64,000 nucleotides of DNA from Thermoleophilia bacterium (GTDB lineage Bacteria > Actinomycetota > Thermoleophilia > RBG-16-64-13): contig JAOSKU010000001.1 in NCBI GenBank assembly GCA_027493445.1, positions 1,515,314 through 1,579,313 of the forward strand, in the 5' to 3' direction. Below, piece by piece: positions 33,728-42,469 of this stretch. A program made the position numbers and the translations under genes. The first letter of the stretch is position 1. Every line of letters begins with the position of its first letter. The notes beneath the pieces were generated by a model. The model saw only the letters and a program-made list of their open reading frames with translations, did not search any database and was not told the DNA's origin.

Positions 33728-33736
33728 TGCGCTTCA

Positions 33737-33782
33737 GGCGATGGAGTTCGCCGCAAGCGCCCTCGAGGGCTGATGACTCCTA
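33737..33782 (+). promoter_or_regulatory. fluoride riboswitch (crcB motif), intact
   Basis: GGCG/CGCC (33737-33740, 33749-33752) closes the first hairpin; GCCC-TCGA-GGGC (33759-33770) is P3; TGATGACTCCTA ends the aptamer. Pseudoknot GGAGT (33743-33747) pairs with ACTCC (33776-33780). GACTCC is also complementary to GGAGTC (33806-33811), the ribosome site of the leader ORF, so ligand binding should free that site. Translational ON control is inferred from these pairings. Confidence 0.93.
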
Positions 33783-33814
33783 ATCGGTCGGTCTGGCTCG
33801 AGGAAGGAGTCGTT

Positions 33815-38985: not shown

Positions 38986-39240
38986 GCCTGACCCTCATCC
39001 ACACCCGCTTCCTTAAAGTGACAACTATCGAAGTCTGTAGTACGCTGCTATACTGAAGTAAACCCATCTGCGGATTCCCTTGAGCGTCCACGCGGGAGGC
39101 GGTATGGAGGAAGAGGTGATCAGTCTCCGAATGAGCCGGAGCTCGCCGGCCGCCTGACCTCACTCCGCGGCCCCGGAACTGGCTGGCGGCCGACTCCGGT
39201 TCCATCCATAGGCAGTGGCGCAGTAAGAGAGGTGAGAGCA

Positions 39241-39603
39241 GTGGAAGCCTATGGAATACCGGTCGACGTCATGACATGCGACCCCGAGCACTACGTCAGA
39301 TGCGCCCTCATGCTTGATGCGGTCCGGCATCTGCCCCCCGAGGTGATGGAGATCCTGCATTACCACGAGTGGACCCTGCGGGAGCCGGGAGGCTATGAGA
39401 TGTTCTGTGCTCTCAACTGCCGGACGACCCCCACGCTTCTGGTCAATGGGGAGCGCAAGTTCGAGAACTACATCCCCACGGTCGACGAGCTCTACGGAGC
39501 CCTCATGTCCGAAGCCCGCACGGAGGAGCAGCGGCTGGTTCTGAGCACTGCCTGGCGTCGCGCGAACCAAGAGTACCCGGTGCGCGCGGCCACGCTGACC
39601 TGA
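39241..39603 (+). CDS. thioredoxin-fold protein, hypothetical
   Basis: A 120-residue protein. The second half, CALNCRTTPTLLVNGERKFENYIPTVDELYGAL, shows the cis-proline (TTPT) and last strands of a thioredoxin fold. The usual N-terminal CxxC is not evident; cysteines occur in MTCDPEHYVRC and just before the cis-Pro. GTG 39241 has AGAGG eight bases upstream and is preferred to GTG 39232. A perfect hairpin follows the stop. It lies near, but on the opposite strand to, the predicted selenoprotein cluster. Confidence 0.6.
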   Translation: MEAYGIPVDVMTCDPEHYVRCALMLDAVRHLPPEVMEILHYHEWTLREPGGYEMFCALNCRTTPTLLVNGERKFENYIPTVDELYGALMSEARTEEQRLVLSTAWRRANQEYPVRAATLT

Positions 39604-39711: not shown

Positions 39712-40045
39712 CTAGCAGGCTGTCGGGAAATGACGCTTCGCCACCGGAGTGCGCTGGGTACGCGCCAGGCTAGAGCTCGTTTCGCAATGACGCTTCGCGG
39801 TCAGGCTGCACTGGGCGCGGGCGAGGCAAGGACGCAGGGAGCGGGCGTAGCGGAGCTACGGACGGGACTGAGGACGCCGCATCGGGCCGCCCAGTGCAGT
39901 AGCGGCCGCCAAGGCTTCGTTGTGAAACGAGCACCCTGGACGCAGGGAGCGCTCGTAGCGGCGCTACGGGCGCGACTGAGGACAACGCATGGCGCCGCCC
40001 AGTGCGGTCCGGCGGCCGAGGTTTCGTTTCCCGACAGCCTCCTAG
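39712..40045 (+). repeat. nested palindromic repeat R7 (type-B inside type-A)
   Basis: Outer ends are CTAGCAGGCTGTCGGGAAA and TTTCCCGACAGCCTCCTAG, an almost perfect inverted pair. A type-B copy (39773-39934, GAGCTCG...CGAGCAC) is inserted between GCCAGGCTA and GGACGCAGGGAGCG. The right end stops one base before the stop codon of the AhpD-like gene. It fills most of the 440-base gap here. Confidence 0.9.
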
Positions 40046-40046
40046 C

Positions 40047-40280
40047 TCACGTCGAGTCTGCGACTGCGGCGAGGAGCTTTTCGGCATGCTCCCGTGTCTC
40101 TTTCAGGCGAGCCTGCATCACGGCGCGGGCCAGGCTCACGACCTGCTCGATCTCCTCCCTGCTTGCTCCGGCCTCACGGGCCTTCCCAACGTGGAGATCC
40201 AGTCACCGCTGGCAGTTGTCGGCCACCGCGACGCCCACGAGCACGAGTTCCAGAGTCCGCTCATCCAAAGGTCCCACCAT
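40047..40280 (-). CDS. AhpD-like protein, predicted selenoprotein (CxxU)
   Basis: Seventy-seven residues when the in-frame TGA at 40203-40205 is read as selenocysteine (residue 26). The motif is then C23-Q-R-U26-LDLH, matching the CxxCxxxH active site of AhpD/carboxymuconolactone decarboxylase-type peroxidase reductases. The following HVGKAREAGASREEIEQVVSLARAVM is the family helix. The frame continues to TGA 40047-40049. ATG 40280 is nine bases after the HMA gene. Alternative reading is a pseudogene, but the TGA falls exactly on a catalytic cysteine. A candidate hairpin (CACG/CGUG) starts 10 bases after the UGA. Confidence 0.78.
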
Positions 40281-40288
40281 TGCGTGTC

Positions 40289-40570
40289 TCACTCTCCTTC
40301 ACCCGGATTTGTGGCGCCTGCCGTCGCGGCTTTTCCTGCCCCCCGGCCTGAGGGGCGCACCGTCAAGTTGTCGTAGCCTGTCCGTTGAGAGATCGCCGCC
40401 ACAACGGCTTCTGTCGTCACCAGCGCAGGGTCGAAAGAAACCAGCGCCCTGCTTAGGGCGAGGTTCACGTCATACTCCACGATGCCGGCTGACTCCTCCA
40501 GAGCCAGGGTGACCATGGCCACTCAGGTCGTTCACTGCATGCCGGGAATATCGATCTCCACCGTTTCCAT
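40289..40570 (-). CDS. HMA-domain protein, predicted selenoprotein with UxxU metal site
   Basis: Ninety-three residues reading two TGA codons (40532-40534 and 40523-40525) as selenocysteine. The N-terminus METVEIDIPGMQ is followed by U-T-T-U-VAMVTLAL, which aligns with GMxCxxCxxxVxxAL of heavy-metal-associated domains, both cysteines being UGA. The rest (GIVEYDVNLALSRALVSF, TTEAVVAAISQRTGYD) is a full HMA fold. ATG 40570 follows the methyltransferase by 56 bases. Expected role: binding a soft metal ion and passing it on. No membrane span or signal. Confidence rests on both UGA codons hitting the two ligand positions. Confidence 0.8.
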
Positions 40571-40626
40571 AGCCCTATGCCCCTGTCGGGCGCCCTGGGG
40601 GGACGCTGTGATCTGGACTTTCCGAA

Positions 40627-41655
40627 TCAGAGTCGCTCTCGCTGCCCATACTTGCGGGCGGCCTGGACAAACGCAAGAAGGTTCTCCGGCGGGCTGTCGA
40701 TAGGAACCTCGCATCCGGTGGCGAGGACGAACCCGCAAGGATTCGCCCCTGCCTGATCGAGTATCTGCTTGACTTCCTGGTCCACCGACTCCGGCGTGCC
40801 CAGAAGCACGGTTTCGGCCGGTCTGACGTTCCCCATCAGCCCGACGCGGGTCCCATAGGTGCGCGATACGTAGCCCATGTCGGCGACGTCGACGCTGATC
40901 ACGCTGGGCCCGCTCTCGACAAAGGGATCAAGGACGGAGTCGATGCGCCCGCAGATGTGCGAGAGCGCCGGCAGGCCGAATGACTTCACGTAGTCCTGCA
41001 GCTCGGTGAGATAGGGGACTACGAACCTACGAAACATCTCAGTCCCCAGGATGCTCCCGGTGGCGATGGGCTCGCAGTTCACGGGTACCCCGCCGGCAGC
41101 GACGATGGCCTCGATCCAATCCCGGTTGGTGTCGGTGGCGTAGCGCAGGACCCGGTGCGCGAAATCGGGGTTCCGATGCAGAGTCTTCACGAACTTCGCG
41201 GTTCCGTAGAGAGACGCCGCGGTGGTGAAGGAACCCGCGAAGAGCGTGCCGACGAAGACCTCCTCCCCTACTTCCTCCACACATCTCGCAGTCGCCTCGA
41301 GGTAGACGGGCAGGCGGCCATCTCGGTGAACATCTACGGGGTGGAGCCGGTCCACGTCATCCTCTGACAGCAAGAAGGGCGTCTCGATATAGGGGGCATT
41401 CTCTTCCGGGTAGGCGAGCCTAGTCCCCATCGCCTCGGCCATGCTGGCAGTAGCGGTCAGGATGGTGATCATGTCGGAGCCATACTTGCGATACGCGGCG
41501 ACATGCGCTCTCGCGACCTTCTCGCCGTCCGTGACCATCTCCTTGACGGTGTACCCCACCACCCGGGCGGCGCCGTTCAGTAGCACCGGAACAGCAGGGA
41601 CTCTGTCGATAGGCTTTCCCTGAAGCAAGGAGCCGACCCGCTCCTTGGGTGTCAT
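40627..41655 (-). CDS. MtaA/CmuA-type methyltransferase (UroD superfamily)
   Basis: A 342-residue barrel enzyme of the uroporphyrinogen decarboxylase superfamily. The zinc ligands of corrinoid-dependent methyltransferases are visible as SHICGRID (HxC) and ATGCEVP, so methyl transfer rather than decarboxylation is likely. It begins MTPKERVGSLLQGKPIDRVPAVP; ATG 41655 with GAGG upstream is preferred, ATG 41679 is possible. No corrinoid protein gene is nearby. It lies between two HMA-domain selenoprotein candidates, suggesting a methylated-metal or metal-thiol substrate; that is inference. Confidence 0.85.
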   Translation of the reverse strand: MTPKERVGSLLQGKPIDRVPAVPVLLNGAARVVGYTVKEMVTDGEKVARAHVAAYRKYGSDMITILTATASMAEAMGTRLAYPEENAPYIETPFLLSEDDVDRLHPVDVHRDGRLPVYLEATARCVEEVGEEVFVGTLFAGSFTTAASLYGTAKFVKTLHRNPDFAHRVLRYATDTNRDWIEAIVAAGGVPVNCEPIATGSILGTEMFRRFVVPYLTELQDYVKSFGLPALSHICGRIDSVLDPFVESGPSVISVDVADMGYVSRTYGTRVGLMGNVRPAETVLLGTPESVDQEVKQILDQAGANPCGFVLATGCEVPIDSPPENLLAFVQAARKYGQRERL

Positions 41656-41730
41656 GCGATCCTCGGGCACTGCAGACATGGTGGGCCCCCAATCATTCCC
41701 GTACGTGCGTGGACTCGAAAACCCAGGAGG

Positions 41731-41937
41731 TCAAGCGGACAGTCGTTCGACGACTCGAGAGTGCTTCCCCGCATCCCGCACCACACCGACGAGCTGCTCG
41801 GGAGTCACGATCGCGGTGTCGCACACGATGATCGCCGTGTCGATGTCCACCTCTGCCGTCTCGACGCCGTCTACCCCTTCCAGGGCCAGTTGGATTACAG
41901 GGATTCAGTTCCCGGTGTTGGCGAAGATCTGAAGCAT
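41731..41937 (-). CDS. HMA-like protein, predicted selenoprotein (single U)
   Basis: Sixty-eight residues with an in-frame TGA at 41905-41907 (residue 11). The sequence MLQIFANTGN-U-IPVIQLALEGVDG and VETAEVDIDTAIIVCDTAIV, then TPEQLVGVVRDAGKHSRVVERL, follows the HMA fold; U takes the first metal-ligand position and the second is Val. ATG 41937 has AGGGAAAGG before it; ATG 41955 with AGGGGGAAGG is an in-frame alternative. It is the gene before the methyltransferase. The missing second ligand makes a metal role less certain than for the UxxU protein. Confidence 0.7.
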
Positions 41938-42029
41938 GAGCCTTTCCCTAGGCATAGCCTTCCCCCTGCGCCGAGTTACATATGGATATAGGTATACACA
42001 GATCTCTACCCTAATGCAAGTCCCCGTAC

Positions 42030-42095
42030 GGTGAAAAGCGGAAGCCGCCCAGCTCTGCCCGGCGGCCGGGGCTTCGTTTTCCGACGGCCCCCTAG
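42030..42095 (+). repeat. palindromic repeat R8, right-half copy
   Basis: GCCCGGCGGCCGGGGCTTCG, then TTTTCCGACGGCCCCCTAG ending at 42095. The final CTAG supplies the stop codon of the ArsR-type gene on the other strand. No left half is present. Confidence 0.75.
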
Positions 42096-42469
42096 TCGAG
42101 AACCGGCCGCGCGCCCTCGTCCTGCGAACGCTCCAGCAGCCGCAGCCGGGCCTCTTCGCTCATCTTGACGATCTCACGGATCGCTTCGTCTTGCAGTCAG
42201 TAGTACACGAACTGGCCGACGCGCTGGCCTCGTACCACCGTCTCGGCCCGCAAGGCGCGCAGGTGACGGGAGACGGTGGGCTGCGACAGGCCGGTGATGC
42301 CGACGATGGCCGACACCGACTTGCACCTTTCCGAAAGAGCAAGCACGATGCGAAGACGCGCCGGCTCCGAGAGCGCCTTGAACAAACGGGCCAGATCGTC
42401 GAACGAGTCGACATGGAGAGCGTCGGCCACAGCGACCTCCAAATCCGCTTTGGAGAGATCCGGTGTCAT
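42092..42469 (-). CDS. ArsR-family regulator, predicted selenoprotein
   Basis: A 125-residue winged-helix repressor reading the TGA at 42197-42199 as selenocysteine 91. LARLFKALSEPARLRIVLAL and GLSQPTVSRHLRALRAE are the ArsR core; the wing ends VGQFVYY-U-LQDEAIREIVKM, and the helix after the UGA continues in frame to TAG 42092-42094. A cysteine (C49) sits near the recognition helix. U91 could act as a soft-metal or metalloid ligand. ATG 42469 is one base after the pgsA stop. Truncation at residue 90 would leave a nearly complete HTH, so a simple stop is the main alternative. Confidence 0.7.

Follow-up and report, generated by a model that had tools for sequence, protein, structure and literature searches.

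A cluster of five consecutive genes carrying five in-frame UGA codons, probably read as selenocysteine (Sec or U), lies on the minus strand at positions 40047-42469 of the 64,000-nucleotide stretch analysed here (the window; Thermoleophilia bacterium assembly GCA_027493445.1, contig JAOSKU010000001.1, positions 1,515,314-1,579,313). The genes encode, in this order, an ArsR-type repressor, a small HMA-like protein (HMA1), an MtaA-like methyltransferase, a second HMA-domain protein (HMA2) and an AhpD-like protein; the UGAs are spread over four of them, the MtaA-like gene having none. That these are selenoproteins, as the original prediction from this DNA proposed, is strongly supported by the Sec machinery of the genome, the recurrence of the UGAs in other genomes, a Cys homologue and a covarying hairpin. 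The UGA of the ArsR gene is the best supported, though it falls off the usual metal-ligand Cys position. The features concerned, including candidate Sec insertion sequence (SECIS) hairpins, are:

42092-42469, minus strand: ArsR/SmtB-family repressor gene; U91 at codon 42197-42199, 125 residues predicted, stop TAG
41731-41955, minus strand: HMA1, small HMA-like protein; motif TGNU, U17 at codon 41905-41907, stop TGA
40627-41679, minus strand: MtaA-like methyltransferase of the URO-D superfamily; 350 residues, predicted zinc ligands H241, C243 and C323
40289-40570, minus strand: HMA2, HMA-domain protein; motif UTTU, U13 at 40532-40534 and U16 at 40523-40525, stop TGA
40047-40280, minus strand: AhpD/CMD-like protein; motif CQRU, U26 at codon 40203-40205, stop TGA
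42169-42183, minus strand: candidate SECIS of the ArsR gene, a hairpin with a stem of 5 bp and a loop of 5 nt; the UGA is separated from the stem by 13 nt and from the loop by 18 nt
40491-40505, minus strand: candidate SECIS of HMA2, a hairpin with a stem of 5 bp and TGGAG as its loop
41977-41994, minus strand: weak operator-like imperfect palindrome upstream of HMA1, TACCTATatccATATGTA; 7-nt arms with one mismatch, possibly due to chance

The predicted gene types and order are confirmed by Pfam and NCBIfam domain models, and each of the five UGA codons could be located. The Pfam cut-offs are clearly exceeded by ArsR (HTH_5, 47.6 bits against 22), HMA2 (44.0 against 24.8), the URO-D protein (245 against 23.9) and the AhpD-like protein (47.1 against 23 for CMD/AhpD, with its CxxU as CQRU), while HMA1 falls slightly below the HMA cut-off (23.7 against 24.8). 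The spacing is operon-like, with gaps of 136 nt (ArsR-HMA1), 51 nt (HMA1-MtaA), 56 nt (MtaA-HMA2) and 8 nt (HMA2-AhpD). TGA is the commonest stop in the window, terminating 32 of the 47 non-overlapping open reading frames (ORFs) of at least 150 residues, and is also the own stop codon of three of the four UGA-bearing genes (HMA1, HMA2 and AhpD). Reassignment of the genetic code can therefore be ruled out, as had been argued. The further claim that the UGAs occupy expected Cys positions stands, by motif, for both UGAs of HMA2 and those of HMA1 and AhpD, where the family motifs presumably have Cys; it does not stand for ArsR, as U91 falls outside the canonical ligand positions of ArsR/SmtB proteins, a point that the prediction overlooked and that makes this UGA the more unusual part.

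The 4.70 Mb genome is 92% complete, and the window lies within a contig of 4.60 Mb that encodes three of the genes whose presence had been proposed as a check: tRNA-Sec (selC; 74 bits, cut-off 47), SelA (563 bits, cut-off 267.9) and SelB (345.6 bits, cut-off 242.25), within 10 kb of each other. Among genomes with related loci, tRNA-Sec is likewise found above the cut-off in those of L048 (75.1 bits), L063 (71.7) and G116 (76.4). Homology continues beyond the UGA in ArsR (11 loci), HMA2 (5/5) and HMA1 (4/4), as predicted, and since the ArsR and HMA UGAs stand at the identical place in other genomes, they represent more than chance. Going by the sequences, the UGAs are probably decoded as Sec in the cell.

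In a set of 5.8 billion proteins, the search for ArsR homologues gave 222 candidates, and those at E <=1e-12 all end directly after Tyr-Tyr (11/11; two of these come from the window's own genome or nearly duplicate its sequence). At the DNA level, a single TGA is found inside six of the seven ArsR matches in a draw of 396 genomes of the phylum. A profile built from six TGA-bearing ArsR sequences produced 49 matches in 329 genomes of the class, of which the top 10 (at least 124.5 bits) are precisely those containing a TGA. The eleventh (116 bits; L086/G922) is the best-scoring UGA-free relative and reads YYC, with Cys at residue 91, so that the comparison with Cys homologues suggested alongside the prediction does yield one for ArsR. 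The remaining 38 matches are without a stop, the residue being R, S or T in the 20 of these that were compared; R, S, E, D or T are found at residue 91 in the other relatives examined. Together with G186, YYU or FYU is present in 11 distinct loci from 10 genomes. The same profile applied to 297 genomes of the phylum of L047 gave, among the matches listed, one with TGA (G622, 69.8 bits) and two with TAA; G622 is not counted in the 11 loci.

A second residue accompanies U91. Cys49 is present in all 17 aligned rows with U or C at position 91 (12 distinct loci), and in none of the 41 other rows, which include the poorly aligned L096. Identification of C49 with the canonical alpha3 Cys was rejected, as it sits two positions ahead of that residue. 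The AlphaFold model of ArsR (predicted local distance difference test, pLDDT, 82) is a winged helix with a long last helix (95-119); residue 91 lies near the end of strand 87-92, ahead of this helix, and Cys49 before the short strand that precedes the third helix-turn helix. These two strands are neighbours in winged-helix folds, and contact between C49 and Sec91 is plausible from the model.

The ArsR hairpin, located 13 nt past the UGA, is present in all 11 loci, with 54 of 55 cells paired and changes on both sides in three of the five pairs. Neither its pairing nor its covariation score was matched by any of 500 shuffles, and pairing drops to at most 71% once the partner is shifted by 1-3 columns. 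In six chosen pairs of ArsR genes, the synonymous divergence of the tail relative to the head is 0.21/0.41, 0.51/0.71, 0.42/0.55, 0.08/0.39, 0.11/0.35 and 0.45/0.45; the lower value after the UGA in five of the six is what an RNA constraint would give. Purifying selection is evident in the head in 6/6 pairs and in the tail in 4/6 (ratio of nonsynonymous to synonymous divergence, dN/dS, 0.07-0.48). The equivalent signal for the HMA2 hairpin is weak: 25 of 25 cells are paired and one pair has changed on both sides, a level reached by 51 of 500 shuffles.

Sec-ArsR genes also have recurrent surroundings. MbdU-like genes adjoin seven of the 11 loci (L071-L074, L129-L131), that of L074 scoring 400 bits against a cut-off of 600, and a thioredoxin-like gene (with UxxC in L073) or its relatives is found near six of the 11. 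Upstream of Sec-ArsR, the palindrome ATATAAAC-N4-(A/G)TTTATAT occurs in four of the 10 loci examined (L074, L075, L127 and L128; L131 was left out of this comparison). As a palindrome of similar size arises in 26-53% of shuffled stretches, the case for this element rests on the mutual likeness of the four copies. L073 is a second Sec-ArsR operon in the window's own genome (G000:C1:3166345-3166680), in which the repressor gene is followed by an MbdU-like gene and the UxxC thioredoxin-like gene. By eye, Sec-ArsR in L127 (5661-7626) and L128 (8643-10218) is followed by DsrE-like (L127), Met-rich, thioredoxin-like and S-adenosylmethionine-methyltransferase-like ORFs, and the thioredoxin-like ORF stops at a TGA with a possible extension beyond it.

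The central part of the cluster, HMA1-MtaA-HMA2, is found elsewhere in the same order. Four other genomes contain MtaA-HMA2 with identical UGAs, preceded by HMA1 in the three whose upstream flank is available: a Syntrophaceae metagenome-assembled genome (MAG; L047), a Deltaproteobacteria MAG (L048), and G825 (L062). The fourth locus (L063), from a MAG named Thermincola ferriacetica that is also the source of L049, begins at a contig end, hence the missing flank. The UxxU of HMA2 is conserved in 5/5 loci, the window included, and the single UGA of HMA1 (NUIP) in 4/4. The arrangement and its UGAs are thus common to genomes of other lineages, whose MtaA proteins are only 55-58% identical to that of the window.

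In the genome draws made, this core is rare: it is found in two of the 395 genomes drawn from the phylum of L047 (both already known) and in two of the 10 from the class of L049, and the 396 genomes of the window's own phylum contained only its own copy and one distant outgroup of ordinary corrinoid type (G116). Scanning contigs with the single MtaA protein found nothing, and an alignment-based scan found four loci, from which L050 was dropped, being 28% identical. P0005 matches in 61 genomes (that of the window included) are paralogues, the nearest outside that genome being 39% identical (L018), and no HMA or ArsR neighbour was seen in the 4 kb inspected at L018. At E <=1e-60, 490 MtaA-like proteins are detected; among the best 120 of these, query included, five metagenomic ones (P0007-P0011) are 72-78% identical, 17 are 56-60% identical and the next at most 53%, and the homologues listed include one from Phosphitispora fastidiosa (P0019). 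In a tree with 31 further listed homologues, the 22 nearest and the query form one branch (100/97).

The genes around the core in other genomes bear on its likely function. A corrinoid protein lies beside it in L047 and L062 (190 and 202 bits to TIGR02370, just below the cut-off of 215.3). Several neighbours belong to families associated with Tso ('three selenoprotein operon') neighbourhoods, represented in NCBIfam by TsoA, TsoX, HUIPC-type Trx, ArsM_AhpD_UU and MbdU. TsoX-thioredoxin reductase fusions are present in L047, L048 and L062, the TsoX domain being above the cut-off in the two scanned (L047, L062); ArsM_AhpD_UU selenoproteins above the cut-off are found near the core in L047 and L048. 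One protein of L048 resembles TsoA (102 bits, cut-off 170), and proteins that match less well occur in L047, L062 and L063.

The model of the MtaA-like protein, the METHYLTRANSFERASE of the cluster (pLDDT 90), superimposes on Methanosarcina MtaA (4ay7) with template modelling scores of 0.88/0.91 and a root mean square deviation of 2.0. H241, C243 and C323 are invariant in all 23 members of its clade and align with the HxC...C of 4ay7. A preprint (PMC10418091) makes the case for His-Cys-Cys as the signature of S- or Se-methyltransferases within this superfamily, and describes selenide-dependent demethylation of methylcobalamin by one such member, ClMlp2. The genome contains 35 corrinoid-protein matches, six of them above the cut-off, so that partners exist despite there being none in the cluster. 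Separately, an MtaA/URO-D paralogue located beyond the window and separate from the operon (L154; G000:C1:2730032-2731030) has, like L155-L159, an in-frame TGA at the third zinc ligand (C323), with the motif SPG-U-DMPYD and Tyr at the His ligand position in 6/6 loci. These loci were chosen because their TGA had already been flagged; no NCBIfam selenoprotein model was matched by the two of the six that were scanned. Judged on sequence, they are likely a family of Sec-containing corrinoid methyltransferases, which would tie Sec more firmly to the corrinoid methyl transfer of this lineage.

How the parts might act together can be proposed only tentatively, with somewhat less than even confidence. 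In this model of a selenoprotein operon, a soft metal(loid), arsenic being the likeliest, would be sensed by the Cys49-Sec91 pair of the ArsR-type repressor. HMA1 and HMA2 would use Sec to capture and hold the soft element: Sec at positions 13 and 16 of HMA2 would replace the CxxC metal loop and, by motif, that of HMA1 would correspond to the second Cys of the loop. Compared with thiols, selenols are the tighter ligands of As(III), Hg(II) and their methylated forms, and it is from this and the HMA Sec motifs that capture by these proteins is suggested. The predicted zinc-dependent MtaA-type enzyme would link a corrinoid protein to the soft atom (As, Se or S) by methyl transfer in one direction or the other, and the CxxU AhpD-like protein would probably regenerate oxidised selenols. 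We infer that C49 and Sec91 act together, which way the methyl group moves and which element is involved. Arsenic is favoured because of ArsR and the ArsM-AhpD neighbours, selenium chemistry being the main rival. A bolder version, which is possible but doubtful, has the Sec-ArsR repressor commanding a methyl-transfer circuit based entirely on selenols, where Sec would serve within a single operon as sensor residue, as ligand on the carriers and as acceptor of the methyl group; in it the Sec-HMA proteins would present a metalloid or methyl-selenoether to the zinc His-Cys-Cys MtaA for methyl exchange with the corrinoid protein.

Several observations weigh against these interpretations. The free-energy scan for SECIS elements found hairpins no lower than those of 280 coding controls, the fraction of controls as low being 0.66 for ArsR, 0.48 for HMA1, 0.35 and 0.11 for HMA2 and 0.24 for AhpD; in this GC-rich genome the scan is not discriminating, and it was replaced by the covariation counts. 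Of the five shuffle measures of the ArsR hairpin, two are not extreme (two-sided pairs equalled in 11 of 500 shuffles, pair types in 442), and the shuffles overstate its support because the hairpin was derived from the same, related ArsR sequences. Two of the six chosen pairs have a tail dN/dS of at least 1.0, hence the far ArsR tail is loosely constrained. The co-occurrence of C49 and U91 may reflect the shared descent of one clade. The L047 genome contains no tRNA-Sec above the cut-off (best match 42.4 bits), possibly owing to an incomplete assembly. The five cluster genes include none for a corrinoid protein, Ram or ArsM, the flanking ORFs having been viewed by eye only, and the best ArsM_AhpD match genome-wide (167.8 bits, cut-off 510) covers the ArsM part only. 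Finally, the fit of Hg or Se is nearly as good as that of arsenic.

Selenium itself would be the substrate if the MtaA-like enzyme demethylated dimethylselenide or methylselenol, or methylated selenide, with a corrinoid, and the Sec-HMA and Sec-ArsR proteins handled and sensed the element. The operon is extremely rich in selenium, and the closest functional precedent is provided by the Mlp enzymes of type 1 mlp clusters, which have the same His-Cys-Cys and of which ClMlp2 is selenide-dependent in demethylating methylcobalamin (PMC10418091). However, the five genes include neither Ram nor a second Mlp, orthology of the MtaA-like protein to Mlp is conjecture, and ArsR, HMA and the ArsM-AhpD neighbours in two relatives point to metal(loid)s; this alternative appears unlikely. 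Those same ArsM-AhpD neighbours favour As over mercury, for which the Sec-HMA protein would be a stronger MerP and the MtaA-corrinoid pair would make or break a methyl-mercury bond. HMA2 does match MerTP (41.8 bits) and MerP (34.1 bits), both below cut-off, and selenols bind Hg very tightly as a matter of general chemistry. Sec forms of HgcA and HgcB appear in the table of PMC13188914; no mer or hgc gene was recognised in the ORFs scanned, no search having been aimed at them, and a role in mercury or methylmercury metabolism is considered improbable.

The remaining alternatives concern the UGA codons themselves. The ArsR UGA falls where the wing ends, directly ahead of the long last helix of the model (H95-119), such that termination would remove this helix. 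A repressor that stopped at Tyr90 for want of Sec-tRNA would thus lose its dimerising helix and free the operon as a switch responding to selenium supply. The genes so freed are themselves selenoproteins that could not be made without selenium, and the Cys relative and co-occurring C49 suggest a chemical role for residue 91, leaving this scenario with little likelihood. That the UGAs are true stops in decayed genes, or miscalls, is hardly credible. Gene callers do terminate these proteins at UGA and the hairpin energies are unremarkable; against this, the same UGA is found in 11 ArsR loci and the same UGAs in 4-5 HMA loci, spread over various lineages and separate assemblies, homology goes on past each UGA, and ArsR is under purifying selection in the head in six and in the tail in four of the six pairs. 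The recurrence of the UGAs across loci and the homology beyond them led to rejection of the pseudogene explanation.

Other features of the window were noted in passing. GC-rich interspersed repeats flank the operon and also lie between ArsR and HMA1 (39712-40045 and 42044-42095). Beside the operon on the opposite strand, a 123-residue ORF (39232-39603, plus strand) looks thioredoxin-like by eye (CALNC, TPTLLVNG), and no match was found when it was scanned with Pfam and NCBIfam. A fluoride riboswitch is located at 33728-33789 on the plus strand (52.6 bits), and PADLOC gave generic HTH matches only.

Each component of the cluster can be set against a known family. HMA2 shares UxxU with the metal-binding (seleno)protein family NF041115 and matches it at 48 bits, below the cut-off of 95, HMA1 (TxNU) scoring 27. 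The MtaA-like protein has the modelled fold and His-Cys-Cys site of MtaA/CmuA (TIGR01463), but scores below the cut-off (175.9 against 235.4 bits) and sits between Sec-HMA genes. Unlike the type 1 mlp gene cluster, the five genes comprise a single URO-D gene and lack both an Mlp2/Mlp3 pair and genes for corrinoid protein or Ram. The AhpD-like protein reaches 36.3 bits against the cut-off of 110 for the GSU3128-type AhpD (seleno)protein (NF041047). ArsR belongs to the ArsR/SmtB metalloregulators by score (NF033788, 80.6 bits, cut-off 55) and by its winged-helix model with a long last helix, yet it has Sec right after the YY of the wing plus C49, both lacking in 41/41 other rows. The usual alpha3 metal motif of ArsR is presumably ELCVC, though not in every member, C49 standing two places before its first Cys; the window ArsR reads SERCKSVS where this motif is expected.

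UxxU metal-binding and CxxU AhpD proteins are known selenoprotein families and Tso a known selenoprotein operon, according to PMC13188914. Table 1 of that review, an inventory of 119 prokaryotic selenoprotein families, contains no ArsR, other DNA-binding repressor or URO-D/MtaA, and the sole regulatory entry is a putative regulator of the FmdB family. PMC8318568 names a putative Sec histidine kinase. The five proteins of the cluster matched none of the NCBIfam models as an ArsR-type selenoprotein. Within the sources covered (PMC13188914, section 7, parts 1-2, and section 9, and parts of PMC12013277, PMC9312934, PMC8318568 and PMC1242214), a Sec-containing gene regulator may be new, with priority uncertain as Tso is known here only through a 2026 review and NCBIfam. 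A repressor reading its signal through Sec would give the 21st amino acid a new function, and Sec-ArsR labels operons with unknown chemistry, making that chemistry testable.

The suggestion that the cluster represents an undescribed system for Hg, As, Se or their methylated forms is plausible as to the elements, whereas wholly undescribed it is not, since its relatives carry the Tso-type families described above. The resemblance to Tso extends from the fusions, ArsM_AhpD_UU and TsoA-like proteins of these relatives to the dense grouping of Sec genes together with ArsR in several of them. By contrast, none of the five window proteins scanned matches a TsoA, TsoB, TsoC or TsoX model, and the window ArsR scores 75 bits against the TsoR cut-off of 115 and has Sec. 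The cluster resembles known Tso selenoprotein neighbourhoods but is not one. Its HMA1-MtaA-HMA2 core connects Sec metal carriers with B12-type methyl chemistry, through which the role of Tso-type neighbourhoods becomes testable.

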